DNA of 53,169 nucleotides from Heterotrichella gracilis. Taxonomy: Eukaryota; Sar; Xanthophyceae; Tribonematales; Xanthonemataceae. The position numbers and the translations under genes are program-made. Of this stretch, positions 1,261 to 49,600 are shown in pieces; the stretch's first letter is position 1, and every line of letters begins with the position of its first letter. The notes under the pieces are model-generated. The model ran no database searches, was not told where the DNA came from, and saw nothing but the letters and a program-made list of their open reading frames with translations. The stretch covers positions 1 to 53,169 of the forward strand of contig JAULBX010026030.1 in the NCBI GenBank assembly GCA_032358255.1, written 5' to 3'.

Positions 1261-4200
1261 GCCTACCTGCACCACATCGTGTGCCTGGTGCTTCCCAACC
1301 ACACCCGCTGGCCATACACCTCCGCGTGCCACCGCTACACCCTAGCAACGGCAGCCATCAACACACTCCGCACCGCGCTGTCCCCACCCGCGGTCCCCGC
1401 TGCGGATGCGCTGGCAACTGGGGATGATGGTGATGAAGATGATGCGATGGAGGAAGGGGCGAGTGGAGGTGGCGGTGGTGGTGGCGGCAGCATGGGGCGG
1501 TTTGTGGTGGGGCTGCTGAGTCAGACTGCGGTGGTGGATGGGTGCCTCATGGCGGCGCTGCCCCCACCAGCAGCGGTACTTGAGGTATGTGACAAGCCCC
1601 AAACTCACAGGAGGTGGGCGACAAACCGTGAACCCCAAATAATGAGTTTTGGATATGTTTGTGAAGGAATTGCGTACGTCAGGACTGCCAAACCCTAGTT
1701 CAAACCCTAAATCCTAAACCCTGCTCCCCTTGCGCAGGATCTGAGCACCCAAGGCAAGCTTGCTGCTGCTGGTGTGGAGGGTGCCGAGGGGCTGGTGGTG
1801 GCGTGGCTGCGCCTGGTACCCGCCTTGGTGGCGGTAGGGGGGGTGGGGCCGGTAGTGGTGCAAGTGCTCATGCAGGTAGGGCCAGGCAGAGTGTCAGAAT
1901 AAAAAAATTCAGAAATAGTATTAGTATATACCAATACAATAAATAGCTGATGCAGGTAGGGCCAGGTACAGTGGCAGTAGGACATGTTTTACAAAATGTG
2001 TGCTTTGCTTGGCCAGAATGGCATATGCCGGCGTGGGAAGGTTTACTGTTGCATTAGCAGTTGCAGTTGCAGGCAATCTTGGGTGCACCTTGTGAAAAAG
2101 CTATCCCATTGGGACCAGCACTGCATGCTAGAAACCTGGAATACATGCACTTTCCCTAACGTGGAGCAGCTTTCATCGCGTGCATTGACAAGCATATTGT
2201 GGGCGCCGTGCAGGCCAGCGAGGAAGGCCCTGCCGCCCCCATCTCCATCCTCTCCTCCTACATCTCCTACTCATATTTCTCCCTTGCCAACGTTTGCCTG
2301 GCCATCAAGGCGCTGACAGCAGTTGCAGAGGCTGCTGGCGCACTCCCTCCTGCATCGATGCCACCCTTGGCGGCTTTCCTGCCACAGGAGCAAGGTAGGC
2401 GCATGTGGTTTAGGGTTTAGGGTTTTGGTTTAGGGTTTAGAGTTTGGGGTTCAAGGTCTCAACCCCAGGAGCAACGGCGCCCCCGGGGGTAACCAATGAC
2501 TTCTTCCTCCATATGATTCATGTACTTGCTGCAAAAAGCTGCAACATTCTTACTGATAGGCGGCTTGGTGGCAGGCACATCCAAACCTCCATACCGACAA
2601 CCCTAAACACTAACCCGCCTCCTCAACCATGCAGGCACCGCCAACCTCCACCCGCGCTTCAAGTCCGCCCTCACCCACCCCTTCCGCCCCGCGACAGCCA
2701 CCTCCCACCCCGCCCTCTTTGCAGCTGCCACTCAGCTGCTGCTGGTGGCTGTGCGGAGCCACCCCAGCTTGGCCGATGCTATGATGTTTCCCTGTGGGAT
2801 TGAGGCCGATCGGAAGGGCAAGGGGGTTGCCACCAAAGGCGAAGGGGAGAAGGCCAAGAAAGGTAAGTAGGGGCATGGATGTGAGGGTTTAGGGTCTAGG
2901 GTCAAGGGTCTGTCGAGAAGGGCAAGAAAGGTAAGGGGGACACGTGATAGTAGGGTAATTGCATCCTGTACTGTTTTACTGGGAATGCCATGCATGTTGT
3001 GGGGAAATATGTATATAAGAAGATTGCTAATGCTCCTGCTCATACAAATGCTCGGTGATGTAAACAGTGCGGCACATCTCATGCCACGCCTCAGTAGCCT
3101 GGTATCTTTTTCTGGAACACCCTGCTGAGTGCCCTCGTCCCCCTCCTTTTCACCCCCATCCCTTCCAACCCTGCATCAGGCGCCAAATCCAAGGATGAGC
3201 CCCCCTTCAGCGCACTGGATGGCCTGTGGGAGCTGCTGCAGCAAGGGGGGGACCTTAGGGAGACACACCCACAGGTTGGGGAGCCACTGTTCAGTATGTC
3301 TTATCAGAGCGTCGAGCCTCCTTCCACAGCTGCTGTGTTGCCCAATTCATTGGATGAATCTGATCCTTTCCCCCTCGTTGCTGGGGTGGCTTGAGCCTGA
3401 GGAGACCCTAACCCTGGCCACATGCGAGCATCATCTGACTAAACCCTAACCATACCCTAAATGCACCGCAGGTCGCCGGCGCTGTGGCTCGTGCCGTGAG
3501 TGGGCTGGTGCTGTGCGGCCAAGCGGTGAGCCGCCCCCTGGCACTCATGGCCTCCCAGCCTGACATGTGGCGACACCTGGCGGACTGTGTGCGGTCAGGG
3601 GCCGAGCAGGTGCGCGGCGGCGGATTAAGGGTGCTTTCAGGGTGTCAGCAGCTAACGCTTGTGCTGTGGTGTTTTGTGCCAGGCTGGGTGGCCTGCGTGT
3701 GGGTCATGTGTGTTGGTTAGTAGTTGATTCAGATTGCATAAACCTATAATACATTTTTCATGCGCTTGAAATGTATATAGGTGGATGGGATTGTCGGTAC
3801 AGAAGTGATGAGAAACATGAGGATATCCTTTCTCATCATGTTCTTGCCCCTGCAGGAACCGTCCGCCTCCCCTGCATCCTCGCCTTCCACTGCACCCCCT
3901 GCAGCGGACCAGGAGCTGTTTCACCTAGCGGGGGAGGCGAGCACGCTGCAGGCGCTTGGCGTGGAAGCATTCGGCCAGCAGGTAAAAACCCTCATACTAT
4001 TACCCTAGAGTGTGGTGGCATTGGGCATTCCACCCACACACACACAGATGTTGTACATCTGAAGGCCGACCCATGCGTCTTTGGCATAGGGCAGCGACAA
4101 AGTACGCATACCAAACAAAAGCCAGGAAACATCCCTACACCAAAACATGAACAGGTTAATGCAAGGGGTGCTTTTGAATCCCCAATCATGTCCATCCCCA

Positions 4201-7200
4201 TCCCTAGGTGGCCGCCATTCGCAGCGGTGGCAAGGCCTCCACCTCCACCCCCACCTCCCAAGTGGGAGGGGTGTGGGGCATACTCAAGTCGTGGGGAGGG
4301 GAGGCGGAGGGGGGGCGGGTGTGCGCGCTGCTGCGGCGCTACAGTGCCACCTCAGCAGTGGCTGCCACCCCTGCCCAGCTCCGGGATCTAGTCAGGGACT
4401 GCCAGCTGGCGGCGCTGACGCTGGTCGCATACGTGCTGTCAGGTGGGTGGGTGCAATTTTGAATTCAAAAAGGATTTGTAGAGAAATGGAAATGTCGGAG
4501 ACCATCTGTGTATGAGTGTGCGTCAATAATGCGTTGGGTACAGCAGCAGTGCATCGGTGGCATGCATGCGCAAATACCACCCCCATATCTCCATCTAGTT
4601 TGAAACCACTCTCTGTTTAAACATTTCGCTCCCCACCTGCAGATGACGCACAGGGGCCCAGCCTGGTCCAAGGCGACACCCTGTTGAGCCGACTGTACCT
4701 GTCTGCCCTCCCAGTGATCAGCCAGCTGGGGACCTATCGGGAAGCTGCCACTGCGCTGGCCCAGCTTGCCCTGGCGCTGGACAAGGGGGGTGTGGAGAAG
4801 TCGAGCCAGCTGGGGATGCTGTGGGGAGAGCTGCAGCGGCTGGGGTGGGAGCAGGTGGGGGCCAGGGAGGATAGGGTCAAATTCGAGCACTTCTTTTGTC
4901 ATTGACTCCCATACATAGCAATGGAAATTCAGCAGAGCGCAGGGGGAAGCAACTGCCATGATCTAATGTATATCTTTGGTTATTGTTCACTGGTTTGACA
5001 CCTGACAAAGGCGATGTGGCCCAGGCAATTTAATGAATATATATTCATCTATCATATTATTATTATTATGCTTTTACACTGGCCCACCTCCCACCGACCC
5101 CCACCCCCACTCGCAGACCATCATGGCAGCCGCACAGGCCTCCCCGTGGAAGCCCCCAGCCCCCACACCCTCCCCCCTGTTTTCCTCCCCTGCGTTTGAG
5201 GCCGCGGTAGGCCCCCTGGCGGCGCAAGCTGATGTCATCCGCAGGTGCAGCGCCAGCCTGGCGGCGGCGTCGGGGGCGGTGGCGGCCGCTGGGGCAAGGA
5301 TGGAGGCGCTGGGCTCGGCAAGGTGGGACATGCATGCAAACCAAAGTAGTGATAAAGATTGACAGCAATTGCCTTAGTTGTCAACACATGCCAATCTACA
5401 CAAGGGCATCGTCACTAGGAGGAATAGCAAATGGACCGCGATATCCGAAAAGTAATAAAAGCTGATGACAGCATTTATCTTGCAGTCACATCCAGGGAGC
5501 CAGCCTGGGCTCACAAAGACTTTCTTGAACCCTAACCGTTCCAACGCAACCCTGCGCTCCCTCCCAGGTGCCTGCCAGCATTCATTAGGGTTTTATTCTC
5601 AACCCCTAGCTTTCACAACGCTACCCTGTGCCTCCCTCCCAGGTGCCTGCTGGCAGTGTGCGCGCGGGGCGTGCCCCAGGGGTCCACCCTCACCACCCCC
5701 CACGACCTGGCCCCCAGCACCACCCTCCAGTCCATCGCCACCCTGGCGCACACCCACATCACCTCCGCACTGGCTGCGGCGGCGGCGCATGCTGACGTCA
5801 GCGTCCCGCAGTACAACTGGCAGGCCGCCAGCCTGGCGCCAGTGGGTGAGCTGGCGCAGGCCATGCTGGTGGCGGTGCGCATGGGGGCGACAGCTGGCGC
5901 AGGACCATCAGGTGGGGTACGAGGTGTGGGGGTTTTTATGGCATTGGACATGGGCACAGGATAGGTAGGTAGTAGGCATGGGGTAGCGATGTTGCATAAG
6001 TGGCAGCGGCAGGCCGCCAGCCTGGCTCCTGTGGGTGAGCTGGCGATGCTGGTGGCGGTGCGCATGGGGGCGACAGCAAGCGGCGCCGGGCAATCGGGTA
6101 CGTGACAGGATGTGCAGCACTTCGATAGGCGGTGCATATGGAAGGTAGGGGGCATAGTCGACAGGGACTGGCCCCAACTGTGCTATTCCTCCCCTGTGAG
6201 CAACGCGCCAGGCCCTGCATGCTTGATGCAATTCCACATTTAATCCGATCATCCTTGTTCTTTATGAGTCTGTGTGTTTTAATACTTGAAAGTATTCTGA
6301 TGTCTCCCGTATGTCCCCAGCAGGCAGCGGAGTAGAAGCCAAGCAGCAGGTGGTCTCCATCGCCCACCTGTGGCTGAAATCCCTGGCCACCTTTGCCACC
6401 TGGGGGGCAGACCCCGCGCTCCTCACCGCAACCACTCAGGCGCTGCTCACGGCTTGCCTGCTGTCGCTGCAATCCCCGCCGCCAGCGATGGCATCCCCGG
6501 AATCCGCTGCCTCCCTGGGGCTGCAGTCTGCCCTGCGGGAGCTGATGGCGCCGCTGTGCGAGCTGTGCAGCAGCAGAGGGGGCCATTTTGAAGAGGTGAG
6601 CTGGCAATAACTGACAAAATGCAAGACTGGCTGTGGGGATTTCGAAACCAGCCATTTTGAGCATACGGCATGAGCCGGGGCTTGGCTTAGAGGCCTTTGT
6701 GATTGCAAGTTGCTTTCTCTGACTGATTACCATTTATAAACCTTGCCGTCTTGTATGGCATGAAAGAATGGCATTATCCAATCTGGTGCACCTACCTTTT
6801 CCTGATCATAATCTTTGCAATTGTTCAGTTTGAGGAGGTTGCGTTGTCCATGCTGGCGCTCATGGGGCGTGCCTACCTAGCACCCCCAGATTGGCTCCCC
6901 ACCATATACAGCCAACTAGACCTCTCGGGACTGCTCAAGAGGAGCCTGGCTGCGGTGGTGCAACCGGTGGGGGGCAAGGAGGGGGCCCGGTCCCCACCCG
7001 TCGGGGGCCTGGAGCGCGCAGTGTTGGATGTGGTGATGGGGGGTGCGGGGGCGCAGGAGGGGGGGGCGCTGCTGGTGGAGATTGGTCTGCCTCGCCACCT
7101 GCTGGCACTCACCAGGTGGCTGATGTCGCCACGGGGAGGGGGGCTGGGCGCGTTTGAGGATGCGGTGGTTGTGGAGGTAGGCTGCACTTGAATTTAAATT

Positions 7201-9351
7201 TGAAATTGCATCTCAATCACTGACGCCAGCACCGAGGGTTGTACAGTATCAAAACATTTTTTCCAACGCCTACAAACAGTGAATGTTGTGTATGCTTTCT
7301 TGCACAAGGTGCCCACCCACCCACTCCACCCGCTCCTCCCCCCATTGCAGGACGCCCCGTCCGCCTCTCCCGCAACCACCACCCCTGACTACGCGGGCGC
7401 CTACGACCCCAAAACCCTAACGCAAACCCCGGCACACCAGCTGTGGCTGTCAGCGCTGAGCACCATGAGCACCATGCTACAGGTAGGAGGAAGATGGTAG
7501 TGTTGATGTACTGAGCCCAACTTTGCTCCCTCTCGACTAAAGTCATATTTTTCCTAATTTGCATATGTTCCCTGTTGATTTCTGGAATTTGTTTTTGGTG
7601 CGGCGCTCCCTCCTGACCCAAAGCAAATACCTGTTCATTGGTTTCATTTCCCGATGAATGTGGTACAGGTGGCGGGGTCGCGTGCTGAGGTGGCGGAGGC
7701 TGCTGTCTCCCTCATGGTGGCCGCTGAGCCGCGCATGCTGGCAGTGCTGGAGCCACCTGCGGGTGGGCCGGACCAGCCAATGACACTGGCGGTGCTGCAG
7801 GTAAGCTAGACTACCCATTCTAGTCAAGGCTACACAAATCCCAAACCATACATCCTCTCCTGGCCGCCCATGTGGGGCGCTGCCAGGCACCAAGCTCTGG
7901 CCTCCTGTCAGTTGCACTTTTTTTTAACCAATTCCACAAGGATTAACAGAAATTTTACATTTCCATTTTCAGATGCGGTCTTACACTTTCAATCCTTGTT
8001 TGGACTTACCCCTGCAGGAGACCGAGCGCACGCTCTTCTTCCTGCGCCTCCTAGCCGCCCACGTGGGCCGCTGGCAGGCAGCCAGCCCGGGATCCCCACT
8101 GGCCTTCCGCCGGGGCGCGGTTGCCTTCCTCACATTTGCAGCGCAGCCCTCCATCCACCGCCGATTTGCTGTGGCCTGCCCGCCTGTGTCGCCTGGGGAA
8201 AAGGCGCTGATGGGGTTGCCAGCCACCCTTGCGATGAATGAAGGTGGGGGTAGGGGGTGTAGAGAGCGGGCAGCGTGGCACGTTGCAATGCTAGGGCACA
8301 CAGGAGAATAAGCCGGTGTTGGCTTGAAACGCCTTACTGTAGGTTGTATTGTGGATGCGCAGAAGGAATGAAAAGGAATGCACGTCCTGTACATCTCCAC
8401 AATGTGCCCATGGTGATTGGTCTCAAGGCCCTGATTTTAATTGTAATTCATTTCATTTCCAAGTAATCGTTTCCAGAATATTACTTGTGCAGGCTGGTTT
8501 TGCCGCTGGCTGGTTTTGCATCGTGGGCAAGGGGGACGCCGGAGGACGCAGTACTTTGGTGCTCTGTATTGTATAAAATTACGTTCTTTACTGTTTTGTA
8601 TATATAAATATGTTTGTATTGTTTCTGTCACTGCAGGCTGGTTTGGCATCGTGGGTGATGGGTGCGGCGCGCCGGAGGCCACAGGCGGGGGGCGATACTG
8701 TCAGGCCATGGGGATGGCGGTGTACGGCTGTGTGGCGGCGGCGCTGGCGTTTGTGGCTGCTGCTGCCCCTGGCGTGAGTGAGGAGGAGCGGCCGCTGACT
8801 GGGCCCGAGTGGCCTGAGGGGGATACTCTGGCTGCAATCATGGTGAGTTGGTTTTCTATATGCGTATCCCGGGGGGATAGATGGTTAATTGGTCAATAAC
8901 AATCAAGTACAGCCAGTTGATCGGGCCTACAGCAGGGGCAACAGCAAGGCTGAGCGGGCCTTAAGCAAGCTGTCCTACAAGCCTTGCGCCAGCCAGTGAT
9001 ATTGGGATTCACAGAGCAATGGCAATTGGTGTTAGCATATTGTAAAGTTTTCTAATTACGGAAGTTATTCCAGGCCTGGTTGCACCATCATTACACTGTG
9101 CCCCAACCCCACGTACACCCACCATTCCCCCCACCCACCCACAGGACCAGTGCCACGCCCTCAGCTACGGCGCCTGCCTCAAGGCCACCGCCCCCCACCG
9201 CCGCCTCAGCCGCACACTGGTGGTGGTGGCAAATGCAGCCATAGCGCTGCAGGGGTTGCTGGGCATGGCCCTGCCACCCTCCATGGCGGCGCGCGTGAGC
9301 GAGTGCTTTGGGCGACTGGGGAAGCACATTGAGGGGGGCGCGGGGAGGTGA
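1261..9351 (+). CDS. Nup188/Nup205-like giant nucleoporin, 5' partial
   Basis: Exons: 1261-1584, 1738-1885, 2170-2394, 2635-2862, 3180-3274, 3472-3609, 3856-3981, 4208-4442, 4643-4854, 5117-5322, 5643-5911, 6321-6595, 6829-7176, 7351-7482, 7669-7800, 8018-8243, 8637-8842, 9145-9351 (TGA). This gives about 1243 residues. The first exon opens in phase 0 with no ATG, so the N-terminus lies further upstream. The protein is almost entirely Ala/Leu-rich amphipathic helices with acidic and Gly-rich loops, as in the scaffold nucleoporins of the inner pore ring. The order of helical blocks and the W-rich segment around 1300-1330 suggest Nup188 rather than Nup205. The family call is by overall character, not by a diagnostic motif; another HEAT-like scaffold is possible. 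Intron 2 needs a GC donor (1886). Six exon boundaries have partial copies nearby. Confidence 0.6.
1871..1970 (+). repeat. Duplicated exon-end/donor segment, offset 80
   Basis: The sequence TGCAGGTAGGGCCAGG occurs at 1871 and again at 1951, followed by similar AGTG-containing sequence. The first copy is the end of nucleoporin exon 2 and the second lies in the intron. Confidence 0.8.
1886..1887 (+). other. Probable GC donor of nucleoporin intron 2
   Basis: The GT at 1876 leaves the exon in phase 0, which cannot join the next exon: that exon needs phase 1 and has an in-frame stop just upstream at 2157. Ending the exon at 1885 before GC restores the frame. A copy of the same junction at 1951-1966 carries GT at the equivalent place. 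Confidence 0.5.
2407..2450 (+). repeat. Telomere-like TTTAGGG run in an intron
   Basis: Consecutive imperfect TTTAGGG units directly follow a splice donor (2395) of the nucleoporin gene. Related CCCTAAA pieces occur at 1690-1722, 2884-2912 and 3441-3458 in the same gene. Confidence 0.7.
5545..5655 (+). repeat. Duplicated acceptor segment, offset 75
   Basis: The acceptor and exon start at 5641-5655 (CTCCCTCCCAGGTGCCTGC) has a near-identical copy at 5558-5575. Both contain a usable AG. The annotated exon starts at 5643 because it keeps the frame. Confidence 0.75.
5815..6098 (+). repeat. Partial exon copy in the following intron, offset 189
   Basis: About 95 bp of the end of the exon 5643-5911 is repeated at about 6004-6098, with the donor (GTACGT) still present after the copy. 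Used as an extra exon with either nearby AG, the copy shifts the frame and meets a TGA, so it is more likely a decoy than a cassette. Confidence 0.8.
6316..6324 (+). other. Tandem NAGNAG acceptor
   Basis: The sequence CCAGCAG offers two acceptors 3 nt apart. Use of 6321 or 6324 as the first exon base keeps the frame and adds or removes one Ala. Confidence 0.6.
8489..8690 (+). repeat. Duplicated acceptor/exon start
   Basis: GCAGGCTGGTTT at the true acceptor (8634) is copied at 8490. GGCTGGTTTTGCATCGTGGG at 8508 matches the exon sequence at 8636 with one or two changes. The copies retain CAG acceptors. Confidence 0.75.
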
Positions 9352-9470
9352 TGGGGCTCATGCCCATCCCCGGTTGTCTACTGGGGATAATTCTTCTATT
9401 CCTGTGTCCATGGTTTGCTTGTGAGGGCGAGTGCTTTGCCCGATTGGGGAAGCACATTGATGGGGGCTGT
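9301..9470 (+). repeat. Copy of the terminal coding segment in the 3' UTR, offset 128
   Basis: GAGTGCTTTG...GGGGAAGCACATTGA at 9301-9332 is repeated at 9429-9460 with a few substitutions, downstream of the stop codon. Confidence 0.8.
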
Positions 9471-10711
9471 CTGGGGGGCGACTGCGGATTGTTCGGAACA
9501 ATCATTGGCATTTGCCAAGATGAACTGGGGCCGGTCCCTCTGGGTGCTTTTGAGAGCAGTCTGTTTTGTATGTCTCTGCCAGTTGAACTCCGCTTCCCTA
9601 GTTCAGGGGTGGATATGGGCATGTAGATGCTGACTTCTATGGCATATATATGCATCACATGGTGGGCGGTGTAAGGGTAGCACGGCAAACTCTCCAGACT
9701 GGGTATTGCTACTTCGTCAGATTTCTAATTCAGACATTGCCAAGATTTAAATTTCCGCATGCCAAGCGGCTGTGGTGGTGCCTATCAATTAGGTCCGACC
9801 TTGAAGGCGTTAAATCATTTCATGCTGTGGTACATGAAGTGATCAATTTGCATTGCTGAGCAATGTGGGCAACGCCTGGTTGCCAGCTAGTATGCCTGTG
9901 AAGTTTGTAAACCCATCTCGCTCAAGTTGACAACCTGATCCATCGCGCATTGTTACACCCGACTCGAAGGGTCTCCAAACACACTGTGGGCGGCAACTGG
10001 CATATGATAATTCATCCACCACCATTCCCCAATGCTGCGTGCACTGCAGCTAGCGTACAGCCTATTTGCATATAGATTGCCTACTTTGTAAAACCCTTGT
10101 TGACCTCCAAACCCACGCCGTGCAGGAGAGCTGACCTGCATGGCTCGTCTATACTCCAAGCCGAGTCTCAGCATTTGAACTGATCATGCTGAAAACACAG
10201 TGCATTAACTTGGAAAATGAATGCACGAATCGTTCCTTGTAAATGTATGTTATGGTCCATACTGAAATCATGCCTATGGTTAGACCTGCTACCACGAGAA
10301 AAGATATGCTAGCACAGGCCTGGCCGCGCACTGTAACAGTTGAACCAAGGTTATGGCCTGCCAGCTATACAAAGTATGTCACGCTTCCTCCACCCAAATA
10401 AATCACTGTTGTTAATACAATACATTTTGTACTACTGCCATGATGCTCATTTTGCAGTTGAGAGCTCCACAAAGCATCTAAACACAACTTTCTGAAAAAC
10501 GCACAACTTCCAGGAAAAACAACCTCTGCTATGTGACAAATGTAAAAATGTTGAACAAAAGACACTTCTTCAGTGATGCCCTACCTCAAAAGCAAACAGA
10601 TGTGATTTACAGAAACAAGCCACGACCGAAGTTATAGACTAACAGTCCCAGCTGAAAAGAAGCATTTTTGTCGGTCCTCAAAAAGAGCAATGTCACTACA
10701 CAATACACAGG
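9471..10711. other. Convergent intergenic region, no gene seen
   Basis: This lies between the ends of the nucleoporin (+) and PI4-kinase (-) genes and should hold both 3' UTRs. TGTAA, a polyadenylation signal used by several green algae, is present near 9668. I see no supported exon or RNA gene. Confidence 0.5.
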
Positions 10712-32497: not shown

Positions 32498-33051
32498 CAT
32501 GCAGGGGGGTAACAGTACATAGATGAGGAGGGGTAGAGGCATTGGGAAAGGTGGAAGGGAGATGGCGCTGCGCGGCTTTCAAGGTCCACGTAAGCTTTTA
32601 TCTAATGAGGCAGAGCGCAAAGGTGGTGGGCATGCGCACCATGCCTAGGGCGCAAGCAGGTGGTCGCTATCTTATTTTTTCACATAATAATTACAGTTTT
32701 GCCACAGACAATCCACCAGGACATTAATTATTTTTATTGCAACACTATTTGTGCCCACGGCCATGCATGGGCAGCCCATTCGTTTGGAACAGCAACACTT
32801 ACTTGCTTGAAGTGCTAACGATGCTTGCAACTCGGAATCAGTCACATGTCGCTGCAGCGAATATTGAGTCAATTAACTTATATTATTTGCAGTGATTTCA
32901 TAGATCACACAGGTACAAAAATCAACTGCTCAATGGTGCGAGAAATGGAAAAGCCTACCTAGCAATACAAATTCCCTGAACGCACTCAGTAAACTGCTCA
33001 AACTCACATCCACTCCATATTTTACCCCCCCCTACTCCCTGCATCCCTCCA
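32498..33051. other. Convergent intergenic region
   Basis: Lies between the stop codons of the SET gene (+) and the transporter gene (-), so it holds both 3' UTRs. No other feature was seen. Confidence 0.5.
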
Positions 33052-36000: not shown

Positions 36001-39000
36001 GATGGTAATCACACAGCTGATGGTGTTGACTCACCCAGCACCTCGGCGTCCTTGGTGGCGCTGCTCTTCTGCCCCAGCTGCCACCAAAAGTGCGCAGGCG
36101 TGTCGCGGTCAGCCTGCTGCGTGGCGTTGATGTGCGCGTCAAGGATGGCGGCAGCAGCAACCACCGTGGACAGCGCCTGCGTGGCCTCCTCCTGGATTGA
36201 TGACAGGTGGAGCTCGGCCTCTGAGGCTGCCTCCACAGCCACTGCGGCCACGCGGGCGGCCTGCTCTGTGGCGCTGGCCTTGGCAACCTACAGGGCAAAG
36301 GAAAGGCTTGTTTTAATCAGGATTGGTTGTTGTTTCTTATTTGAATTTGGCTCCTGCTGGGTCATATTGGGTTTTCCACTCAGTGCCTGTCGCTTCCAGC
36401 ATCTGCAGATGTCCGGGTTGCATTTGTGGGAGAAAACACAGCAGAATTCCTCAAGGTTACCCCAACATTTGCTTCTAATCCCTTAACCCTTTTTTCAAAA
36501 CCTTTTCTTTTTTACCCTAACCCTGTCACCCTACTCCCACCTTTGCCTCCTCCTGCGCCAGCTTCTTTGCCATGTTGACCACCTGGTTCTCCTTGTGCAT
36601 GGCCAGGATGGTGGCCTCGGTGCAGTACACAGCGGCAACAATGCCAAAGGCAAGCAGCAGGATGGCCCACCGCCGCCGAGACCGCCACAGCGCAGAGCCT
36701 AAGCAGCACAAAAGGGGAATGGTTGCCAATGATACCGCAAGACTGACTCAGCTCAGGTTGAGTATGAGGGTGGTTGATTTAGGGCCAGAGTGTCAGATGG
36801 TCTGCCATGATGGAGTGCAATTGGGCAATGTGCCCTGTCCATGGCAATGGGACAGTCAGACCACCTGCGCCATAGTCTTGACACGCACTTTTTACGCACT
36901 CTTCATGCTTTGGTTTTTTATCAGACCTCCAGCAGCCCACCTTTGATCATGTCCACGTCGTAGCCCAGCATGCCCCGCTGGCGCGCGGTGATTGCCAGGA
37001 ATATGGCGGCAGGGAACACATACGCGATCAGCACCGAGGCCGTGGCCCCAGTCAGCGCCAGGATGAACTCGGTGTTGGGGATGAGCAGTGCAGCAGCCAG
37101 GGCAATGCCTACATAAATATTGCATATGTGGTGTGTAATCATTGACTTGGTACTGTGAAATCATTCTTTTCTTCTATATGACAACCATGAGAGAGCCACC
37201 TCCACTTACTAGGCCATTGTAATCAAACCAACTTGTAGTTAAATTTAATATGATATACAATAGATGTCTTCATATCCTCAACCCTGTAACTTCTTCACGC
37301 ACACAGGCTCACCTATCGCGCCCACCGTGATGACCTGCTCCTGCATGGCAGTCAGCACCGGCATCTGCCCTGGCTGCTGCACCACCACCTCCTCCCCCAG
37401 CGGGGCCAGCAGCGGCAGGAAGATGGTGTGCAGGGGGAGCACCACCAGGGGCACGGTGCCCAGCACGCTGAAGCCGTACCCAAACTTGAGCAGGCTCTCG
37501 AAGGCCAGGCGCAGTCCTGAGGTGTTGGGGCCTCCCAGGTTGCGGAGCAGGTCACCATTGGTCCTGGAAGAGGAGCCAATTTTCAGCGGGAGCACTGGCA
37601 AGGGGTGTGTGGGTAGACAACATGCACAAGGATGGAGACTACGTGCAAAAAGAGGCGCTGTTTGGAGGTAAGTTTGAGCAGGCTTTTGACTGTCAGGTGC
37701 ACGTCCTCACAGATTGTGGAGCAGGTCACCGTTGGTCCTACAAAGAGAAGTCCTGTACATTGTGATGTAATTTATTGTGATATAATACGTGCATTCCAGA
37801 AGTACGTGCTGTAGCCAGATATTCCAACAGTAGTTGACAATAGCAAAACAACGAAGTTAAATTTATACATTTCTGCAGCCAGGATCAAGTGGAACTGATA
37901 TATGACAATGCGGTAAACCGTGTCCACCAACCCACCTTGACCCAAACGCCACATATCCACAAGTGCCAATGGTGATGTAGATGCAGGCGCTGAGGAACAC
38001 GCTCTGCACGCCAAGCCACATGATTAGTTACCAATCATAGCTGCAAGCCGAAGCGATTCCATTATCCACCAGTGGACGCATTGGGGCACGCATGCGCCAT
38101 GCCTCAGCAAACCATTTCCTCTGTGGCATGGCCCACAGAGCTGGTAGGGGCAAAGGATGGTCTTAATACGTAAAACTACCTTTTTTATTTCCATCAATCC
38201 TATACTGTAATCTGTCATGAATTGTACATTCACCCACCTGCTGCACCACGCTGTTCATTCGGCTGATGGTGGGCATCCGCAGGGAGGCGAAGATCTGGAA
38301 CAAGAATTGATGCGCAGTGAAGCCATACACCATGACCGGGAAGGCAACCAGCACACCCTCCCACCGCCAAAGCACCACCGGGCCTGCGTGGCAGCACCGT
38401 TTGTTCAAGGTTTCGGGTTCATAAAAGTAGCAAAACGCCCCTGGACCCACATTGCAAACACATGGATGCTTTTTCTACAGTGCCAGGCAACAACATGCTC
38501 TTGAAGGTTGATGATGGTTAAGTCAGCTACAATTGCTACGAGCAGGCATGCATGAATATATTTTTTGAGTGATGGTGCAGTGTAACATCATGTAGCAGGT
38601 CCTGTTCTAGCCATTCCCATGCGCTACCCCAACACCACACTGCACCGCATGTAAAACTGCTAGCGGCACAATGGCCGGCATCATCATCGCCACACAGCGG
38701 GCAGCATGGCTACCAAGCAAATCAACAGCAGGCTTTGACCTCCAAGTCCCTGAGCCCTGACCCCAGCCGTTGGCACACCTGGCACTGTTTGAGGCACCAC
38801 TGCCAGCATGGCCACCATGACGGTGAACACCAGGATGAAGCCCACACTGCCTTGTGATACCAGGGCCAGCAGGTGGGGGCTGCGCACAAACAGCGCCACC
38901 GGCAGCGCCCCAAACAGCGTGATCACTACGCACAAATGGGGCACATTGAGCTAATACACAAAAACAATTTATTCAAAATGCCAAAAAAATGCAAAAAAAT

Positions 39001-40647
39001 ATATACATGATTTGATAGTCAACAATATTCCGTCTTAAAATATTACTCATCATCCATCCGCCACACATCGATGCTGATGCAGCCAACAGCATCGATGTGC
39101 GGCGAATGGATGTGCGCGTGATGCAGCCAACACGCACACATGCATGCCTTACCTAGCATGAGCACCGGGCGAGAGGGCTCGGCTCCTGGTGGGATGATTG
39201 TACCAGCCTGCACAGCGCACACCGCTGTTTCAGAACTGATGCCGTCGCATTCAAATGCTATCACATCGCAGCGCCTTATAGAGGACTGGGGTGCTTGGCA
39301 TGCGATCACCATTTTGATGCATCCTATGTGGGTCATGTGGATGTGGTGGACATAAGCATGCAGTGCGGATTGCGTGGGCATGGCGTGTGCATGGAGTACC
39401 ACCAAAGGGTACACTTCTGCCAGAATGTTGATGAGTAGGGCATTGCAATATTTATTTTGACCGTGCATGCGCTTGATCATGACTGCAGCCATTGCGGTCC
39501 ATTGCGGTGCGTGGCCTGTGCATGGCGTACCACCGAAGACCACACATCCGCCAGGATATTGATGTAGGCCACCAGGGATCCCATGTTCAGCGTGCTGATG
39601 CAGAAATCCACCGCCCGCTGCCCGTACTTCCCAAAGCTGTCCCGCGCAATCTCCTCATAGGTGCGCTTCCCTGCTAGCTGGCTGGAGAGTAGCAATAACC
39701 GCATGGACATCTCACTGGCCACTAGGTTCAATACCACCAGCAGGGTTGCGAGGATGACCCCGCAAGACTTGTAGCAGTAGGGGTAGCCCAGGACCGAGGC
39801 TCCCAGGATGCAGTTGATGAGGTTGTATACCGACTCCGTCTCGTTGGTCTTGCCGTCATCGAAGATGGAGAAGGAGGGTATGGGTGCACTGTCCGCGCGC
39901 TGGGACATTGCTGAGTTGGAGCGGATGAATGCCCTGCCATTCTGTAGCCAAAGCCCATGCGTTGTGTCAGTAGGAGGAACTTGCATACCCAACAGGTCAA
40001 TTAAATCAATATGCTATTCTGTTGATCATTAGAGGGTCAATACCCCATTAACCCATGAAAGCGTATAGATGGATGGAAGTAACGGATGTGGGTTGCAATG
40101 TCCCAAAATCACGTGCATGGCTGTGCGCGACTAACCCGCTCACCCTGTGGGACAAGTACATGGGTGCCCGGGTGGGACACACCCCACCAACAGCGGCCAC
40201 ATGCCATGCACTCCTGTGCTTCACAAGTTCTTACCTTGTGGGCCAGAGTGCTGGACACCTTAGGTGACATGGCAGCACCTTCAGCAGGCTCTGTCAACGA
40301 TTCTTCAGTGAATGGGGTTGCAGCTGCATGGCACAGGCACTTCATTGGCCAACATACCTAACCCAGTTGGACCTCCGAGTGCGCAGGGTCAACATGTGTC
40401 AGAATAGGGCTGCCTGGCATGGGCTCTTCCAGACTGACTGCTAAATTGACTAGAGTGCTGCAAACTTCAAGTGGAGTGGAACTGCGGTGCATGTGAACAC
40501 CAGTCCCCGGCAGATGCGCTCCTCACCCATTGAGTGGAGCTCTGCATTTTCCAGGGGGACGCTGTCCACTGAGACAGACCTCCGGAGCAGGCTTTTACTG
40601 GAGAGTGGGTCAGCGTTGTTGTTACCCCTCCCTGCTGCGCCCACCAT
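33052..40647 (-). CDS. AAAP/SLC38-type amino-acid transporter with coiled-coil, sequon-rich tail
   Basis: Exons in transcription order: 40647-40527, 40323-40235, 39941-39531, 39207-39153, 38925-38779, 38383-38238, 38003-37936, 37563-37313, 37108-36941, 36698-36541, 36287-36035, 35737-35562, 35387-35244, 35040-34879, 34655-34554, 34217-34011, 33727-33581, 33336-33052 (TGA), giving 1029 residues. The cytosolic N-terminus has an RRSVSVDS motif. Residues about 95-520 form about 11 membrane helices with AAAP hallmarks (NLINCILGASVLGYPY, MVYGFTAHQF, GYVAFGS, IPNTEFILALTGATASV). The last helix is WAILLLAFGIVAAVY. An odd number of helices puts the tail outside or in a lumen. That tail (about 540-1029) is helical and Ala/Glu-rich, with nine N-x-S/T sequons, then an (AT)n stretch and a Gly-rich end. 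The transporter family moves neutral amino acids with H+ or Na+. Confidence 0.88.
35750..36010. repeat. Imperfect GAT/ATG trinucleotide-rich tract
   Basis: Low-complexity GAT, GATGATG and CATGAT repeats in the transporter intron between exons 11 and 12. The open frames here are compositional. Confidence 0.8.
37547..37745 (-). repeat. Duplicated acceptor/exon start, offset 174
   Basis: On the plus strand GCAGGTCACCATTGGTCCT (37547) is repeated as GCAGGTCACCGTTGGTCCT (37721). In the transcript this is the start of transporter exon 8 with its AG acceptor; the copy lies in the upstream intron. Confidence 0.85.
39370..39585 (-). repeat. Copy of an exon end with donor, offset about 131
   Basis: The 3' end of transporter exon 3 (encoding INILADVW and the following donor) is copied at about 39377-39440, where the same frame would read INILAEVY. 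Flanking CATTGCGGT-like sequence is also repeated. Confidence 0.8.
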
Positions 40648-41741: not shown

Positions 41742-44659
41742 TCAGGAGTCCAATATGTTCGCGTCGAGCTGCACTAAATGGGGCAGCAGCGCCCTCAGCC
41801 GCTGCTTGTAGCCCGGCTCCGCAGCTACAGGGTTGCCAGACAAATACACGCACGTCAGGCTGTCTTTCACCGGCGCCAGCGCTGCATCCAAGCTGTCCAG
41901 AGGACCGATCTGGTTGTCATTGAGCCACAAGTCTTGGAGCTGTGTGAGCCCATCCAGGCCCTGCACCGCTGTCAGCCGGTTGCTGGCGATGTCCAGCACT
42001 TGGAGGTTGACCAGGGTGCTCAAGCCCTGCACGGGAGGATAAGGGGGAGTAAGTGGGACCAAGCTGATCAATTGATTGATCGTTGGCAAAGGCTGTAGGT
42101 TGAGGGTCTCAAGCCCGGCACATGCGAATACAGCAGAGAGGAGCATGATCAGTGTGATGACGTGCACAAGTGGGTCAGTGTGGCTGAATAGGCCAGAGGG
42201 ACCAAGCGCTGCAGAGACGCACACAAGGGTCATTATGGCGGCGCACTCTAAGAGAGCAGTCGATTGTGGCCAAGCACTGTCCAATTTGGACGAGGTTGCT
42301 GAGGGTCTCAAGCAAAAGGGAACCATATTGACATGTTTGATGACTGCAGGTGGCGCCTGTAATGATTATTCTAATAATATTGTGCGCATCATAATGTGAT
42401 TGCGGGTGGGACTTGAAATGATGATCATGAATGGATTGCCGCACATACGCACCTCCATTGTCTCGATGCCATTGTGCGACAGGTACAGCTCCTCCAGGGC
42501 GGTGCACTGCTCAATGCCAGCGATGCGCGTCAGGCGGTTGGATTGCAGCGACAGCTGGCGCAGGTTGGTCAACCTGCACAGGCACCTCGCACGTCATGCC
42601 ATTCTCCTTTCCGCTTCTTTAATGAACCATTGCTTGGTTCATGATGGTTTTCTTCACAGGGCTGGCAGGCGCAAGGCATGTAGGAGCTGCATGCCTACAG
42701 CTGTGTTGCGAGCACACTTGACAATCTTTCATTATTTCTTGTAAACCACCACACCGACCAGGGCGGCTCGCAATACGCCTGTCCAAGAAAGGAAGTTTTT
42801 TTCCACAGGGAACGCCAACACACGGTATTTTCTTGTGAAGCCACGCGTGGTAGCAAGGAGCAGCTCTTTCGCCAGACATTGCAACCAATTCCAGGCACCA
42901 TGTGCAGGTACCAGCCTACCTGTAGAGGTCCTCCATGGCCGCTATCCTGTTCCTGCCCAGCCACAGCTGCTGCAGCTTCTCCAGCGCCCCCAGGTTCTCC
43001 ATCAACCGTATGCGGTTGGACCCCAGCTCAAGCAGCTGAAGCTGGGTGAGGTGGCCCAGGCCCTCTATTTGCATCACCTGTTTGAGAATGAGAGTGATAG
43101 TGAGTACCCGTCGCGGCTCAAAAACCACAGGCAACATGCTGGGGACATGGGCAGCATCCCTTGCAGCAGACGTGTGGCAGAGCATGCCCGCCCATACGCA
43201 AAAATACTGGTTCGCCAAAACAAGGATCATCCCATCACCTTGTTGCTGGCCACAAACAGCTCCCTGAGTCCCAGGGATGCCAGGCTGGCGATGGATCCCA
43301 GGGAGCGGATCTCGTTGTAGGACAGCTCCAGGCGGGTGAGGCTGGAGAAGGCAGACAGGTCTGGGGCCTGCGCAGGTGAGGTGCGGGTGAGTCCCGCGGC
43401 AGCGAACCCATGCATGGATATGCAATAATGCATGCCTTTGTGCGCCGCAAAAATCATGATGATATTGATCATAAGAAATACGATAAGAATGATGATAGTA
43501 AATAATGGAATGAAACTGTCATGGATACTGTAGCAAATGGCAGTGGAGATAGGCACCCACGGGACAGGCAGGCGACCCAAACCCTCAGCGTAAACCCTGA
43601 ACATTAACAGGTAGGCACATGCTGCTCACCTGCTGCAGCTGGTTGTCGTGCAGTACCAACTCCTGGAGACCTGCATACATATTATTTAGGGTTTTAAGGT
43701 TTAGAATTTAGGGATTTAGAGTGTCTCACCACAGACAGATACGGGAACCAGCGTGTACAATACCCCAAGCAGGGTATACAAAACCATAAACAGCACGATG
43801 CCCCTCACCTGGTGCGGATGCAAGCTGGCTGAGCTGAGAGCTGTCTGTTAGCAGGTTCTGTCGCAAGGATAGCTTTTGTAGGCCTGGAAACAACCCCACT
43901 TCAGCATCAATACCTGTGCCATGCCATCTGCCCAACATGCACCCTGGCGGCCCAGCATCGAGTTTGCAATATGCGATATCATATTACATGTGCTACCAGA
44001 CTGGTGGTGTCAGTCACTAACACCAAACCTGTAAGGGTTTGAGCTGAAGCAACCACCTGGCTGTGCTCACCTGTCAGTGCAAGCAGCTTAGGCTCGAGGG
44101 TGGCCAGCCGGTTTGCGGTCAAATCCACTACCTGCACAAGCCACACTGCCTGTTAAGCTGGCTCAAAATACCACTGGTCCAGAGGTAGGATTAGCAGTGC
44201 CAGGAAAGGGCTGGCCGGCGCAGGGTGCGGAGGCCAAACTGCTAGCCTTTTACACATTGCTGCATGCACGGACTTTACGAACAATCACCTGTACACCATC
44301 GGCAGGCATGTTCTGGCCTGGAAGGTTTAGGGTCCTAACCTTGCTGTGACACGGTACAACCTCTTGAGCAGGGGTTAATACTCAGCTGACACCTTGGCAG
44401 ACGGGTACACACAGAGTGCTTGGTGTGTGCCCAGCGTTGGTGGATACACCCCAACTGAGGCACGCATTTAGCTGCCACCTATGACGCCCTCGTTCCCTGT
44501 GTCACACTATGACCTACTCCTCAGGCACAGTAGAAAGCTGGGTACCTTGAGCGTTGGGCTGAGCGGCACGTCAGCCAGCGAGTGCAGGTGGGAGTTTGTG
44601 AGGTCCAACTCCTCAACTGCCTCCTCATCCGCAGCTGCAACTGCTCCTGGCTCACCCAT
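41742..44659 (-). CDS. SDS22: SDS22-like leucine-rich repeat regulator of PP1 (PPP1R7)
   Basis: Exons in transcription order: 44659-44546, 44131-44071, 43883-43809, 43670-43630, 43367-43239, 43077-42920, 42573-42453, 42026-41742 (TGA), giving 327 residues. The ATG at 44657-44659 opens MGEPGAVAAADEEAVEELDL. From about residue 18 to the end there are roughly ten to eleven 22-residue LRRs of SDS22 type (for example LQKLSLRQNLL, LTRLELSYNEIRSL, LQLLELGSNRI, LEELYLSHNGIETME, LVNLQVLDIASNRL). The LRRcap-like end has YLSGNP and YKQRLRALLPHLVQLD. The LRQN signature and length fit SDS22, which binds the catalytic subunit of protein phosphatase 1 and controls its maturation and location. The 41-nt exon 4 encodes half a repeat. 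Confidence 0.87.
42000..42330 (-). repeat. Three copies of the last-exon acceptor region of SDS22
   Basis: On the plus strand GGTGCTCAAGCCC (42015) has relatives GGTCTCAAGCCC (42105) and GGTCTCAAGC (42305), each with matching flanks. In the transcript these are imperfect copies of the start of the last exon, at offsets of about 89 and 288. Confidence 0.6.
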
Positions 44660-45553: not shown

Positions 45554-46541
45554 ATGGCACCCTCTTTGACCGTCTCGGAGCCCCGGTGTTGGGCGGTGCT
45601 GGTCCCTCATGCTGTGGGGCTGAAGGGCAGGGTGCCTCCACCCCTTGCCCTGCTACCAGGTGAGTTCTCTGGCTTGCAAGGTAGCCTATCAAGTGGCTTG
45701 TTCTGCTTGATTTTTTGTCGAAGTGCTCAGAGGCTATGTCCTGGGGTCTATGTTAGCTCTCTATCTGTGCTAGTGCAGTCTCAGTTCCTTGTTTGTGCAT
45801 CCATATCTGAGTTTTGTGTGCCAGCGACAGCCCATGGTCTGAAAACTAGCGGTTGGGACGAGGCCTTGTTCGCGTTGTACAGAGCTTGGGTAACTACTGT
45901 GGTGATGAGGCAGTGCTGTTTAAGAGTGCCAGTCTGCGCTGGTCTTCACTATGTACCCAGCACTACTTACAGTGCCATGCTGGGTGCAGGGGTTACCAGC
46001 AATGGGGTGTGGCGCGGGGAATGCATAGGCCACTCTCCCTCGTGCGCCCACCCCTCTATCAGAGTGCACTCCAAGCTGCGGCCATCGTCACAGGATGTAC
46101 TGGAGCTGGAAAGTATACACCAGGTAGGGGACAGGTGGTGGCGGTTAGATGTGGTCTTGCAACAGAAGTCATTTGTGCAGCCCTGCACACGCGGCCACAA
46201 GCAGTTATGCGCTAGCAGATCTGTACAGCATATTGTGGACCTTTCGCTCTGCTGGGGTGGGGTGATAGTTAGTTGGCCAAGCATAAGCACGAACATTCAT
46301 GCATTAATGTATTGGAATCCACAGTTGATAATGTATGCAAACTGTGAATTGTGACTTGTCACAAACATTTGAAGTGATTTGCTGATGGCGTTTCCTTCAA
46401 CATCAAGCAGGCGGTGCTCCAGGAGCTATGCATCTTCCAGGTAGACCTTCTGTCCCACAGTAGTAAGTCAACCCAAACTAATATCAATCAAACAGTATCA
46501 CCATATGCAAGTTCACATATTTTTTTGGGAACAAATCGCAG
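45554..46541 (+). other. Probable unresolved 5' exons of CSK
   Basis: CSK must have more N-terminal coding sequence, including a transit peptide, before 46542. One candidate first exon is 45554-45659 (ATG, ends phase 1 before GTGAGT). A second is 46063-46123, which encodes an Ala-rich helix reminiscent of the family. I could not connect them in frame with confidence. The whole stretch 45512-46354 is also open in one frame, without any recognisable domain. Confidence 0.3.
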
Positions 46542-46600
46542 CCTAGCGAGGAGCTCCAGGAGCTATGCTCCCTCCAGCTCGACCTGCTCTCGCGCCTGCT
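46407..46600 (+). repeat. Copy of an exon start upstream, offset 137
   Basis: GCTCCAGGAGCTATGC at 46553 (CSK exon) also occurs at 46416, with GACCTTCTGTC against GACCTGCTCTC further on. In frame the copy reads LQELCIFQVDLLS against LQELCSLQLDLLS. Confidence 0.8.
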
Positions 46601-49600
46601 GGGGGGGCCTGGGAGCGGCGAGGTGCGCAGCATTGTGTATGCGCGCACCTCGGCCAGCCTGGAGTCCGGCATCCTGCAGCTGCAGCGGGTGGCGCAGTCG
46701 GGGCCCGCGGCGGCGGCGGCGGCGGGGCGCGCCGCGGCGGAGGGCAGGGGGGACGACGGGATGCTGCTGCTGGGGGCGGTGAGTGGGGGTGTCCTTGGCA
46801 ACGGCGGTGGTTCTGCGGTGGTTTTTTCTAATCTTCTGATAATCCATATGATTTTGCAGTACTAAGAACTCAGAAGGTTTAATTATATGGAGTGTGATAA
46901 CTACGTTCTTTTATGTTTACATCTCTACTTTGCCCTTGGTACCAGTGTTCTGGCGAAGTGTCACTAGAAACCACACCATCACGGGGTATGTATTCACGTC
47001 ATGTGCTGCATCGCAGAACGGCTATGGCAGCGGCATTGACGACGCGGTGTTTGAGCAGTCTCTGGTTCGCCAGGAGTTCATCAACCTCCCAGACAGCGGT
47101 GGACTGGTTATTCCCCTGGCCTACCAGGTATGAGCACAGCAATTTTGCCACGGGTATTCTGGCTGAAGTGCCAAAATGCATGTAAAGTGGCTTACTCGTC
47201 TTGGGTGTGGATCACGCGAGCTGGCATTGTGGCATTGTCTACCCATTTTTTGTGCTGTCAACAAGGGTTTACTGCACACAAGAGCATCGACCCCCTTTGT
47301 GTCGCTTTGCAAAGGTTCATAGCAAACAATTTTGGGAGACAATAGTATGGTGTGATATGGTGGGTTCACAATAACATTGTGCCATAAATAGCAACATTGG
47401 TCATTCTCCCCTCTTACCAGGACTTTTTGGTGGGGCTGTTGGTGGTGGAGCGCGCGCTGCCATACCCTAACCTAGGGTCCCAACAGCCCTCCCCCACCAT
47501 GACCGTAGATGACTTCTCAATCTTCTCAGTCAGCGATGATGGTGACTCAGCATACGGGTCAGCACCAAGCACCGCTGAGTCAGCAAATGGCTCAGCACAG
47601 GGCAGCAATGGCTCAGGGTACGGGCGGACGCAGCAAAATGGCAATGTGCCGGGTGGCGCCAGGGGTGGTAATGGCGGCGGGGGTGGGGAGGTGCCCTTTG
47701 GAGGCGCCTACAGCTCGGCGAGCTCCTGTTCCGAGGCGCTGGTGCAGTTTGATGCCGTCAACGCGTTCCCTGATGCACACAAGTCGGCACTGCAGGTGAG
47801 TGGTGTGTCCCTTGTAGGCATGGTGCTTGCATATCGAATGCTGGCAACCGCATTTAAATGACTGGTAATATGCACAGGGGCTGTAGGGTAGAGGCCTTTG
47901 GGATTTTTGGTTGGTCAGGCCCTGTTTGTAATGTGTGATGGATCCAGAGGCCTGGCATGACTCAAACCTGAACCATGCACATGGTCGCTCGCACCCTGGT
48001 GATGGTGTGTACGATCAAATCCTAAACGCTAATACAGTGGTTGCCTTCAACCCTAAAAGATACTGTCTCTTTTTCTTCAGGTGGTCGCTCGCGCCCTTGC
48101 CATGGCCTGTGTGATGGACCAGCGGGCGGCGCTGGACCGGGCGCAGCACGCGTTGCGGCGCATGCATGTGCGGGGACTGGTGGAGGAGGCCAGGCAGCCG
48201 CTGTCTGCGCTGCGCACCCTTGGTGCCATGCTGCTGCCCAGGCTAGCTGAGGGTGAGCCTGACCAGGACATGGCTGCGGGGATCATGATACAGGGGGACC
48301 GCCTGGCGGAGGTGAGACGATCACTCACTTTTTTGTTGTTGGTTTTTTCTGTATTTATTTATATCATTTTTTTGTTCTAATGGGATTTATTATCTTAACA
48401 ATTGGGGGACCGGCTGGCAGAGGTTATTACCCATATCCCAAATTAACCCTGAATCCCACAACCTAATCGCATCAAATCTGATCCCACGGGGATAGGCTGG
48501 TGGAGGTGAGCCATTTCATACCTGTTGCACCTTTTTGTTTCTTGGATATTGTGCTCAACATGGATTTAGTGCATCCTGCAAGGTGGGAGGCATGTAATAG
48601 GGGGCATCACATTCAGGTATTTGGGCATAAAGTGCGCTTGTTGCATCTGCTGCTGTGGGATTCATGGCCTGTTTCGGGAGTGTAGGTGAACTTGGCGTGC
48701 TGTTGGCTGTTGTGACAGGACCCGCATAGTGGCCAGATTGGTGACTGAGGTGGGGATGGCATGCGTGCAGGTGGTGAGCCAACTCCAGTCCGCGCTGCAC
48801 CCCGCCACAGGGCAGCAGCAGCAGCCAGGGGGAGTCGCCGCGCAGGTCCCGGTGAGGGCCCCTGCCCCGGTGAAGAGGAACAGCCCCCTTTCTTCAGGGG
48901 AGAATGGTGCAGGCGACTCCACCCTCCCCTTCTTCCTGCAAGCCAGCTCAGCGCGCTTGCTGCCGTCATCGGGCCAGGATCAAAGGGACCTGCGCGGGGC
49001 GTCGGGGACGGCGACGGCAGCAGGCGCGTACGCCGAGCGTGTACAATCTTCCTCCTCTACTTCTGCAAGCTATAGTTCACCCCCTCCGCTGCTCAGCAGG
49101 CCCGTGCGCCGCTTGGGCCCCGGTGGGTCTTCCCCTTCGTCCGCCTCATCCCCTCCCCAGCAGACTACATCCTCCTCCCCCCTTGGGCCCCAGGCCACTG
49201 CATCCCTCATCAAATCTGCGTCCAGGATGGGGAGGGTCACAGTCCCCAGCCCAGCTGCAAGAAACTCAGCCATGTGTGAGCGATCGGCAGCCTCCTCGGC
49301 TAGCAGGGGGTCTAATGGCGCATCCACAGCGGTGCTTGATCAGGTCCGATCGAAGCAAACCAGTCTTGATGAGTTCAGATCGGACCGGATCGGGTCTGAT
49401 CGGGAGGCAGCCCAGCCCGCCAATGTTTCCACCATGCCCTCCCTCAAACTGGCACTGGAGTCGTTGGAGCTGTCGGATCTGGAGGACCTGTACTCAAACC
49501 CACAGGTGAATGCTTTTTTATGCCTGTCTTTAGTGGAAAATGGTAAGGTCTAGACAACCGAAAACATGACCTGAGAAGTCTAATATTGCGTTTCTGCTGA

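Follow-up and report, generated by a model that had tools for sequence, protein, structure and literature searches.

Exon-intron junctions are repeatedly duplicated, in direct orientation, into the adjoining intron both in the 53,169-nt contig analysed here (JAULBX010026030.1, our contig C352, the whole of which is called the window below) and in a further 200 kb of the same 68.5 Mb, 903-contig genome, and telomere-like tracts lie at the joint between the two copies far more often than at matched positions in copy-free introns. The duplicated junctions of the window had been noticed in an original prediction made from its sequence; the tracts at the joints were missed there and are new here. 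We favour, with moderate confidence, an explanation in which breaks are repaired, or templates switched, at telomeric tracts, producing tandem duplications that lengthen introns; that confidence extends over two orders of events, an older tract that provokes the duplication and a tract inserted in the course of it.

Local direct repeats in gene bodies

The analysis in depth covers 253 kb, namely the window and 20 further 10-kb stretches spread over 18 other contigs, with low-complexity bases (1.2%) masked. The outside stretches were chosen by contig number, their sequence unseen, starting at base 10001 and later also at 20001 and 30001; some lie on contigs with a kinase match, and the sample is not strictly random. 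Four stretches of low GC, three on the 894 kb contig C1 (L009, L029 and L030) and one on contig C100 (L016), were left out of every gene-based count; they combine a GC content of 0.35–0.37 and open reading frames as long as 1483 codons with a scarcity of local repeats, and look like contaminant contigs, probably bacterial, within the algal assembly.

Direct repeats spaced 20–400 bp apart number 8.3 per 10 kb in the window, against 0.19 at 2000–2380 bp and 0.75 for inverted repeats, while the outside stretches hold 15.8 direct, 0.5 distant and 1.0 inverted repeats per 10 kb (range 0 to 63 per stretch). Local direct repeats are therefore not special to the window; in the two samples they are ~30–45 times commoner than repeats at 2 kb and 11–16 times commoner than inverted ones, which bears out the high rate of local duplication that had been proposed. 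The four contaminant-like stretches (36% GC) contain 1.25 per 10 kb.

The proposal that splice junctions are hot spots of this duplication holds only in part. When 50-nt segments were searched ~350 bp to either side for a direct copy at a score of at least 28, one was found for 16.2% of junction segments (n=976), 13.6% of exon-edge (n=755) and 13.2% of intron-interior segments (n=2689), then for exon interiors (10.4%, n=1457), mixed segments (9.6%, n=612), intron edges (7.5%, n=778), intergenic DNA (3.2%, n=1938) and the contaminant-like stretches (0.5%, n=1453); at a distance of 3 kb the share is 0–0.8%, and for inverted copies it is 0.7% at junctions and 1.7% in intron interiors. Equal density in intergenic DNA, set out in the prediction as a counter-argument, was thus not found. 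Pairs that span a junction number 107, a modest excess over the 84.3 of rotated annotations (a level reached in 10 of 300 rotations), or 84 against 59.4 at the strictest threshold (1 of 300), and exon-exon pairs lie above rotated annotations as well (136 against 78.1). A junction hot spot as the chief cause is weakened by the near-equal frequency in intron interiors, and we conclude that gene bodies, rather than junctions per se, are often duplicated. Purifying selection on one copy would in any case let junction copies stay visible longer, hot spot or not.

Exon edges compared with their own intron exceeded the 99th percentile of the null at 43 of 312 donors and 51 of 314 acceptors (1% expected). 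The same search with exon pieces 100–150 nt off gave 5/175 on the donor and 6/183 on the acceptor side, a shortfall that distance and selection would explain, and 30/250 with intron interiors. Once overlaps with exon copies are removed, 73 intron-intron pairs are found in 109.6 kb, whereas 62.7 kb of intergenic DNA holds 24 pairs; the low intergenic density could reflect compact regulatory sequence or transcription-linked breakage.

Exon-edge copies, sought downstream in the intron for donors and upstream for acceptors, number 82 (37 of donor and 45 of acceptor type) and occupy 75 of 351 introns, those under 80 nt being set aside, in 29 of the 58 predicted genes. The aligned copies have a median length of 47 nt (5th–95th percentile 28–94 nt, the search threshold excluding short repeats) and the gap between them a median of 65.5 nt; event-by-event alignments cover 22/37 donor and 22/45 acceptor events. 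Of two other comparisons of repeat pairs, one dropped any pair with an alignment overlapping a previous one, and the second displays 34 of 37 pairs. As predicted, the copies sit mostly in introns and seed decoy sites, GT being retained by 22 of the 24 donor copies that can be aligned and AG by 27 of 32 acceptor copies, and their main effect would be to lengthen introns, the median length being 333 nt with a copy and 269 nt without.

Most copies evolve like non-coding DNA, while the exon side adds synonymous changes. Indels across the 82 copies comprise 31 that shift the frame and 4 that keep it, 24 copies are frameshifted, a stop or frameshift is present in 26 (with six in-frame stops), and mismatches by codon position amount to 11.4, 8.2 and 20.7%; purifying selection on the exon half, with mostly neutral copies, accounts for the asymmetry as had been argued. 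These figures bear on the idea that the copies are tandem alternative exons under selection, in keeping with which a few are open in frame and synonymous differences are somewhat in excess; the frame is not kept, however, and we regard this idea as very improbable. One such case is on the minus strand of L021 (640–5823), where a gene whose product we take to be trigger-factor-like carries a 21-residue exon piece (G-ERLAEQEKQVMQAKQQRILQ type) three times in frame, which may represent exonised copies, alternative exons or gene-finder error. For two other genes, the SEC14 gene of the window and a purple-acid-phosphatase-like gene of L021, the spliced protein, minus the intronic copy, aligns to a solved relative across the duplicated junctions, in the SEC14 case with no interruption at the junction of 23064–23105, and the amino-acid-transporter gene of the window shows no net insertion in its domain match (residues 45–414 on profile 4–375).

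Telomere-like tracts and the proposed repair of breaks

Arrays of (CCCTAAA)8 give 33 overlapping matches on 11 contigs, and the 17 forward matches (6 contigs), those for which the distance to a contig end was determined, all start within 145 bases of the contig start, from which we take TTTAGGG to be the telomere repeat of this genome; the other 16 matches (5 contigs) are in reverse orientation. Relative to the number of word types, telomere words are 7 times as frequent as permuted words (1664 for 14 words; 4529 for 266). Three exact units in a row are matched at 834 overlapping places in the whole genome, the reversed pattern at none and a permuted pattern at 9, in a single array.

With a gap counted when it held at least two telomere 6-mers, two gaps under 12 nt dropped, and the same junction distance in copy-free introns as the null, telomere words are found in 50 of 80 gaps between copies as against 13.9 expected (18/50 against 9.6 in an earlier form of the test). 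The share tends to climb with copy identity (5/14, 17/26, 15/22, 13/18), and introns with copies hold 34.4 telomere words per kb, those without 13.5. With the tracts as the starting point, a direct repeat flanks 46 of the 153 intronic tracts of at least 14 nt at a distance of no more than 120 bp (168/1530 control positions), compared with 3/31 intergenic (control 11/310) and 0/8 exonic tracts (control 8/80); for tracts of at least 10 nt at a stricter score the figures are 58/164 intronic (control 13.7% of 656) and 0/27 intergenic. The cleanest case in the window is a 48-nt telomere-like tract (31403–31450) that fills the space between copies 31361–31403 and 31452–31494 with at most 2 nt between. 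Further cases are the pairs at 2847–2935 and 29822–30015, in the latter of which the tract (29978–30000) stops 1 nt ahead of the copy at 30002–30015; a short telomere-like run (26082–26091) also separates the copies 26049–26076 and 26092–26119 of the ladder listed in Table 1.

Plain replication slippage or unequal exchange, in which intronic telomere-like sequence would be a bystander and junctions would be conspicuous only via selection on one copy, fits the near-equal duplication of intron interiors, the small junction excess over rotated annotation and the mostly neutral decay of the copies. It is nevertheless already disfavoured by the matched-position test of the gaps, and by the proportion of tracts flanked by repeats relative to control positions, and we consider it unlikely.

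Taken together, the direct orientation and tandem arrangement of the repeats, the decay of one copy and the telomeric tract at the joint point to break repair or template switching at telomeric tracts. Under such a scheme pieces of gene bodies, from some tens to ~200 bp long, would frequently be duplicated locally in tandem, the repair of a break or stalled fork in or near an intron leaving two direct copies of a piece and, very often, a short stretch of interstitial telomeric sequence, (CCCTAAA)n or (TTTAGGG)n, at the joint. Where the piece spans a splice junction, splicing would stay on the exon-proximal site and the second copy would be carried as intron and decay; the result would be an intron that has grown and holds decoy sites, with purifying selection on the exon half making junction cases conspicuous. 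The repeats, their abundance in the 253 kb, their orientation, the decay of most copies and the link with telomeric sequence are observed; the repair step itself we infer, together with the order of events, the tract being either inserted by telomerase or capture, or an older one that breaks or makes the polymerase jump.

Several findings weigh against this explanation. Fewer than two telomere words are present in 30 of the 80 gaps, and for the window alone they are found in 4 of 11 gaps where ~2 would be expected. Enrichment in the outer flank is about equal to that in the gap (23 against 7.4, position-matched), and 22 of 73 pairs, with 2.2 expected, have tract beyond the copies as well as between them. 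The order TTTAGGG left, CCCTAAA right was not seen in the gaps (Mann-Whitney p 0.22). Break repair alone does not explain the low intergenic density. Some intact copies are called exons by the gene finder, whose models are computed from the genomic sequence, and codons with a single difference are synonymous in 171 and nonsynonymous in 158 cases, more synonymous than expected had the copies always been non-coding; some copies may therefore once have been coding for a time.

Evidence on the order of events is divided. If the tract came first, older intronic telomeric tracts would be fragile or slippery, and a polymerase or broken end restarting shortly upstream would duplicate the edge, its splice site and the tract as a tandem unit. 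The pairs with tract on both sides and the enriched outer flank are more easily explained if the tract was part of the duplicated unit than if it was inserted at the joint. The same order is favoured by copies that end in tract at either side (e.g. in L023, L018, L027 and L022) and by the 21 of 50 cases in which the exon-side breakpoint has a tract no more than 6 nt away. The paired test (n=73) suits insertion better, with tract in the inner position only in 23 pairs (10.6 expected) and in the outer only in 1 (5.2 expected), and because intergenic tracts are so rarely flanked by repeats a tract alone is not enough. We see this order as a real possibility that falls short of probable. An initial inner/outer comparison (28 against 1 discordant) was confounded by junction distance and was replaced by these position-matched tests.

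Insertion of the tract, in which a staggered break would be filled in and telomeric repeats added or captured to leave a target duplication around them, as in some mammalian insertions, is a possibility that we hold tentatively. Direct repeats that abut the tract, as at 31361–31494 of the window or at L012 7240, where they are separated by the 12-nt gap gtaaccctaaac, and the inner-only excess speak for it, and it has a mammalian precedent, in which a minority of insertions carry a duplication (PMC2246262, PMC7215372). Copies with a median of 47 nt, however, would require very long overhangs, tracts are often found beyond the copies too, and the G- and C-rich strands show no left/right order (89 GC against 94 CG neighbours in gaps; mean relative position 0.503 for C-rich and 0.427 for G-rich). 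Telomerase healing of both ends, which predicts that strand order, is unsupported.

Gaps on the acceptor side carry CCCTAAA in the gene sense in 38 runs against 3, those on the donor side about evenly (20 against 23), a bias that selection against TTTAG decoy acceptors would explain. Telomere-like words cluster by both intron ends in all stretches examined, and may act there as branch-site sequence or pyrimidine tract.

Repeats and genes of the window

The repeats originally noted in the window are present: 24 scored pairs from 18 entries all match ungapped, in direct orientation and at or near the spacing given (scores 22 to 93), and among 3000 random placements with partners 2–5 kb away the share reaching the same score is at most 0.0047 for each. 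The weakest are 24517/24707 (17/21, 0.0047) and 42020/42109 (13/14, 0.0027); 42020/42308 (12/15) and 48408/48491 (16/20) were excluded from the final scoring. Of the four-copy ladder noted at 25951–26120, three copies were sought and confirmed, and it was scored as 25951/26053, 25951/26096 and 26053/26096, because 25951/26120 as a single pair matched only 8/9. Several pairs are second views of one family, and the 24 are therefore not independent. The entries fall in six predicted genes, in agreement with the 'at least six' proposed. A predicted junction lies within or up to ~6 nt from a copy in 19 of the 24 pairs; in the other five, both copies are within predicted exons (5822/6011), an exon is paired with sequence past the predicted gene end (9301/9429) or with an intron (29822/30002), or intron is paired with intron (26053/26096, 42109/42308). 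The PI4-kinase gene, said to show no such repeats, has one weak pair (12686/12785, score 28), which leaves that statement nearly correct, and the pair at 2847–2935 was absent from the original list.

Table 1. Duplicated junctions and related direct repeats of the window (positions in nt; matches as identical/aligned positions).
Feature	Position	Strand	Match and remarks
Donor junction of exon 1738–1875 (CAG|GTAGGG), 1866–1897; copy 1946–1977 in its intron	1866–1977	+	28/32, offset 80
Donor junction GAGAAGGCCAAGAAAG|GTAAG, 2847–2867; copy 2915–2935	2847–2935	+	20/21; flanks TTTAGGG-like tract 2884–2902
Acceptor CTCCCTCCCAG|GTGCC, 5632–5650; identical upstream copy 5557–5575	5557–5650	+	19/19, offset 75
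Exon piece 5819–5894; copy 6008–6077	5819–6077	+	36/38 and 37/39, offset 189/183; gene finder reads the two as exons, one possibly a pseudo-exon
Acceptor-region copies 8488–8503 / 8632–8647	8488–8647	+	15/16, offset 144
Exon-end piece 9299–9339; copy 9427–9467 past predicted gene end	9299–9467	+	37/41, offset 128
SEC14-type exon donor end 23064–23105; intron copies 23171–23204 and 23211–23234	23064–23234	+	
Acceptor junction pair 24509–24529 / 24699–24719	24509–24719	+	17/21, weak
Donor-junction ladder 25950–25974, 26049–26076, 26092–26119	25950–26119	+	
Exon end 29822–29835 and 29924–29952; copies 30002–30015 and 30106–30134	29822–30134	+	offset 180–182
SET-like gene, donor-end pair 30325–30357 / 30528–30560	30325–30560	+	26/33
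Acceptor junction CTGCAG|GTTGCC..., three copies at 30591, 30806 and 31005	30591–31068	+	copy at 31005 likely the real exon start; gene finder chooses otherwise
43-bp direct repeat 31361–31403 / 31452–31494, intronic	31361–31494	+	37/43
Acceptor junction pair 31701–31728 / 31751–31778	31701–31778	+	26/28, offset 50
Acceptor junction pair 37531–37565 / 37705–37739, amino-acid-transporter-like gene	37531–37739	-	31/35
Donor junction pair 39378–39433 / 39509–39564, same amino-acid-transporter-like gene	39378–39564	-	45/56
Acceptor pair 42019–42032 / 42108–42121; intron pair 42101–42114 / 42300–42313	42019–42313	-	13/14; 14/14; weak
Copy pair 46413–46454 / 46550–46591	46413–46591	+	34/42, offset 137
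Acceptor-side pair 47982–48005 / 48082–48105	47982–48105	+	20/24, offset 100
Donor junction 48293–48313; downstream copies 48404–48424 and 48485–48510	48291–48510	+	19/21; 21/26

Two repeats of other kinds were observed: a degenerate direct repeat with a spacing of ~250–300 bp and up to 79/82 identical positions, which is intergenic and lies at the contig's left end (231–900), and a 35-bp tandem repeat of 2.1 identical copies with a diverged upstream copy (29070–29182).

Genes were predicted with a self-trained, splice-aware gene finder that draws on the DNA of this one genome, and which gave the 58 genes with 376 introns in the 253 kb and the splice consensus (A/C)AG|GTRNG at donors and TGCAG|G at acceptors. 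It was seeded with the PI4-kinase reading frame and seven Pfam-matched stretches, some on the wrong strand, and later rounds retrained on their own output; initial settings over-called tiny exons and were replaced by later ones. Pfam searches of four window proteins matched an amino-acid transporter, a SEC14 (CRAL-TRIO) domain and PRP38 in three of them, and Pfam also supports the PI4-kinase with ubiquitin. For the fourth, the product of the SET-like gene, a provisional label, neither a protein search nor Pfam gave a match. An Rfam scan of eight stretches gave no match, and a transfer RNA scan of ten yielded one tmRNA-like call that was taken as false. The closest named relatives of the window's PI4-kinase-gamma include Trebouxia sp. 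C0004 (61%), Myrmecia bisecta (58%) and two Coccomyxa (62 and 56%), by which the host is probably a trebouxiophyte green alga; the same protein matches an environmental protein at 84%.

Intron birth and known routes of intron growth

Tandem duplication of AG|GT had also been put forward as a route of intron gain. If an intron arises in this way the donor region is repeated at the acceptor with an offset of one intron length, and such an end-to-end duplication is clear in 1 of 357 introns, outside the window at L013 7557–7753 (score 58, shift 0), where CAATGCGCAG|GTGAG(A/G)GCGCTGGAG stands at both ends with a third copy inside and telomere-like filler between. The window has a weaker candidate at 49028–49099 (score 26, shift 4; null 0/3479 at a score of at least 24), and five of the 357 introns score at least 20, with 0.62 expected. 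Intron birth by these duplications is rare, and an offset of one intron length is rejected as a general rule; the proposal stands for the single clear intron, not for the set as a whole.

The AGGT model describes direct duplication over the exon-intron boundary with duplicated splice sites, as in the potato RdRp case (PMC4974935; reviewed in PMC3443670, whose text does not contain 'telomer'). The alga resembles it in this respect, and L013 7557–7753 is an end-to-end AG|GT duplication; it differs in that nearly all its cases only lengthen existing introns, are frequent in 253 kb and are linked to telomeric sequence. Neointrons of Daphnia are read in PMC4202315 as products of staggered double-strand-break repair, in which filling-in leaves direct repeats and longer introns. 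The alga is similar in this, but the repeats of adjacent exon in Daphnia are 4–12 bp long, against a median of 47 nt for the aligned copies here, found with a threshold that excludes short repeats; 'telomer' does not occur in the text of that paper either. Short interstitial telomeric sequences of mammals are inserted at breaks, some with direct target duplication, and the alga likewise has its own telomere repeat, TTTAGGG, between flanking direct duplications. PMC2246262 and PMC7215372 place target duplication at 6/130 rodent, 4/25 primate and 3/66 horse loci plus 2 of deletion-and-addition, a minority, whereas in this green alga 46 of 153 intronic tracts are repeat-flanked (control 11%).

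Introner elements alter intron content genome-wide (PMC9860276). Introner-like mobile introns with long target duplications would explain why inserted DNA carries copies at both ends, but no repeated family was found among the alga's 376 introns, only six of which resemble an intron of another gene (30–33 nt matches, telomere words masked, 253 kb compared), and the end-to-end arrangement is clear in a single intron; introner elements are therefore rejected, their involvement being extremely improbable. A literature search at the level of titles and abstracts did not find a telomere link to intron duplication described. Border duplication, staggered-break repeats and telomeric insertion are each known, and their combination at this frequency, in an alga, appears to be new.

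How introns grow and originate is an old question, and there are few genomes in which the process can still be seen. In this one, some 20% of introns contain a copy of their own edge that can be recognised, and the telomeric mark at the joints suggests a repair route, so that break-repair models of intron growth and birth become testable in one kind of organism. We suggest, tentatively, that telomeric DNA may be a main agent of intron growth in this lineage, breaks in transcribed genes being repaired with telomeric repeats and local target duplication. If so, duplication of a junction would lengthen the intron and plant decoys, while duplication of an exonic AG|GT could make a new intron in one step, for which L013 7557–7753 is the candidate.

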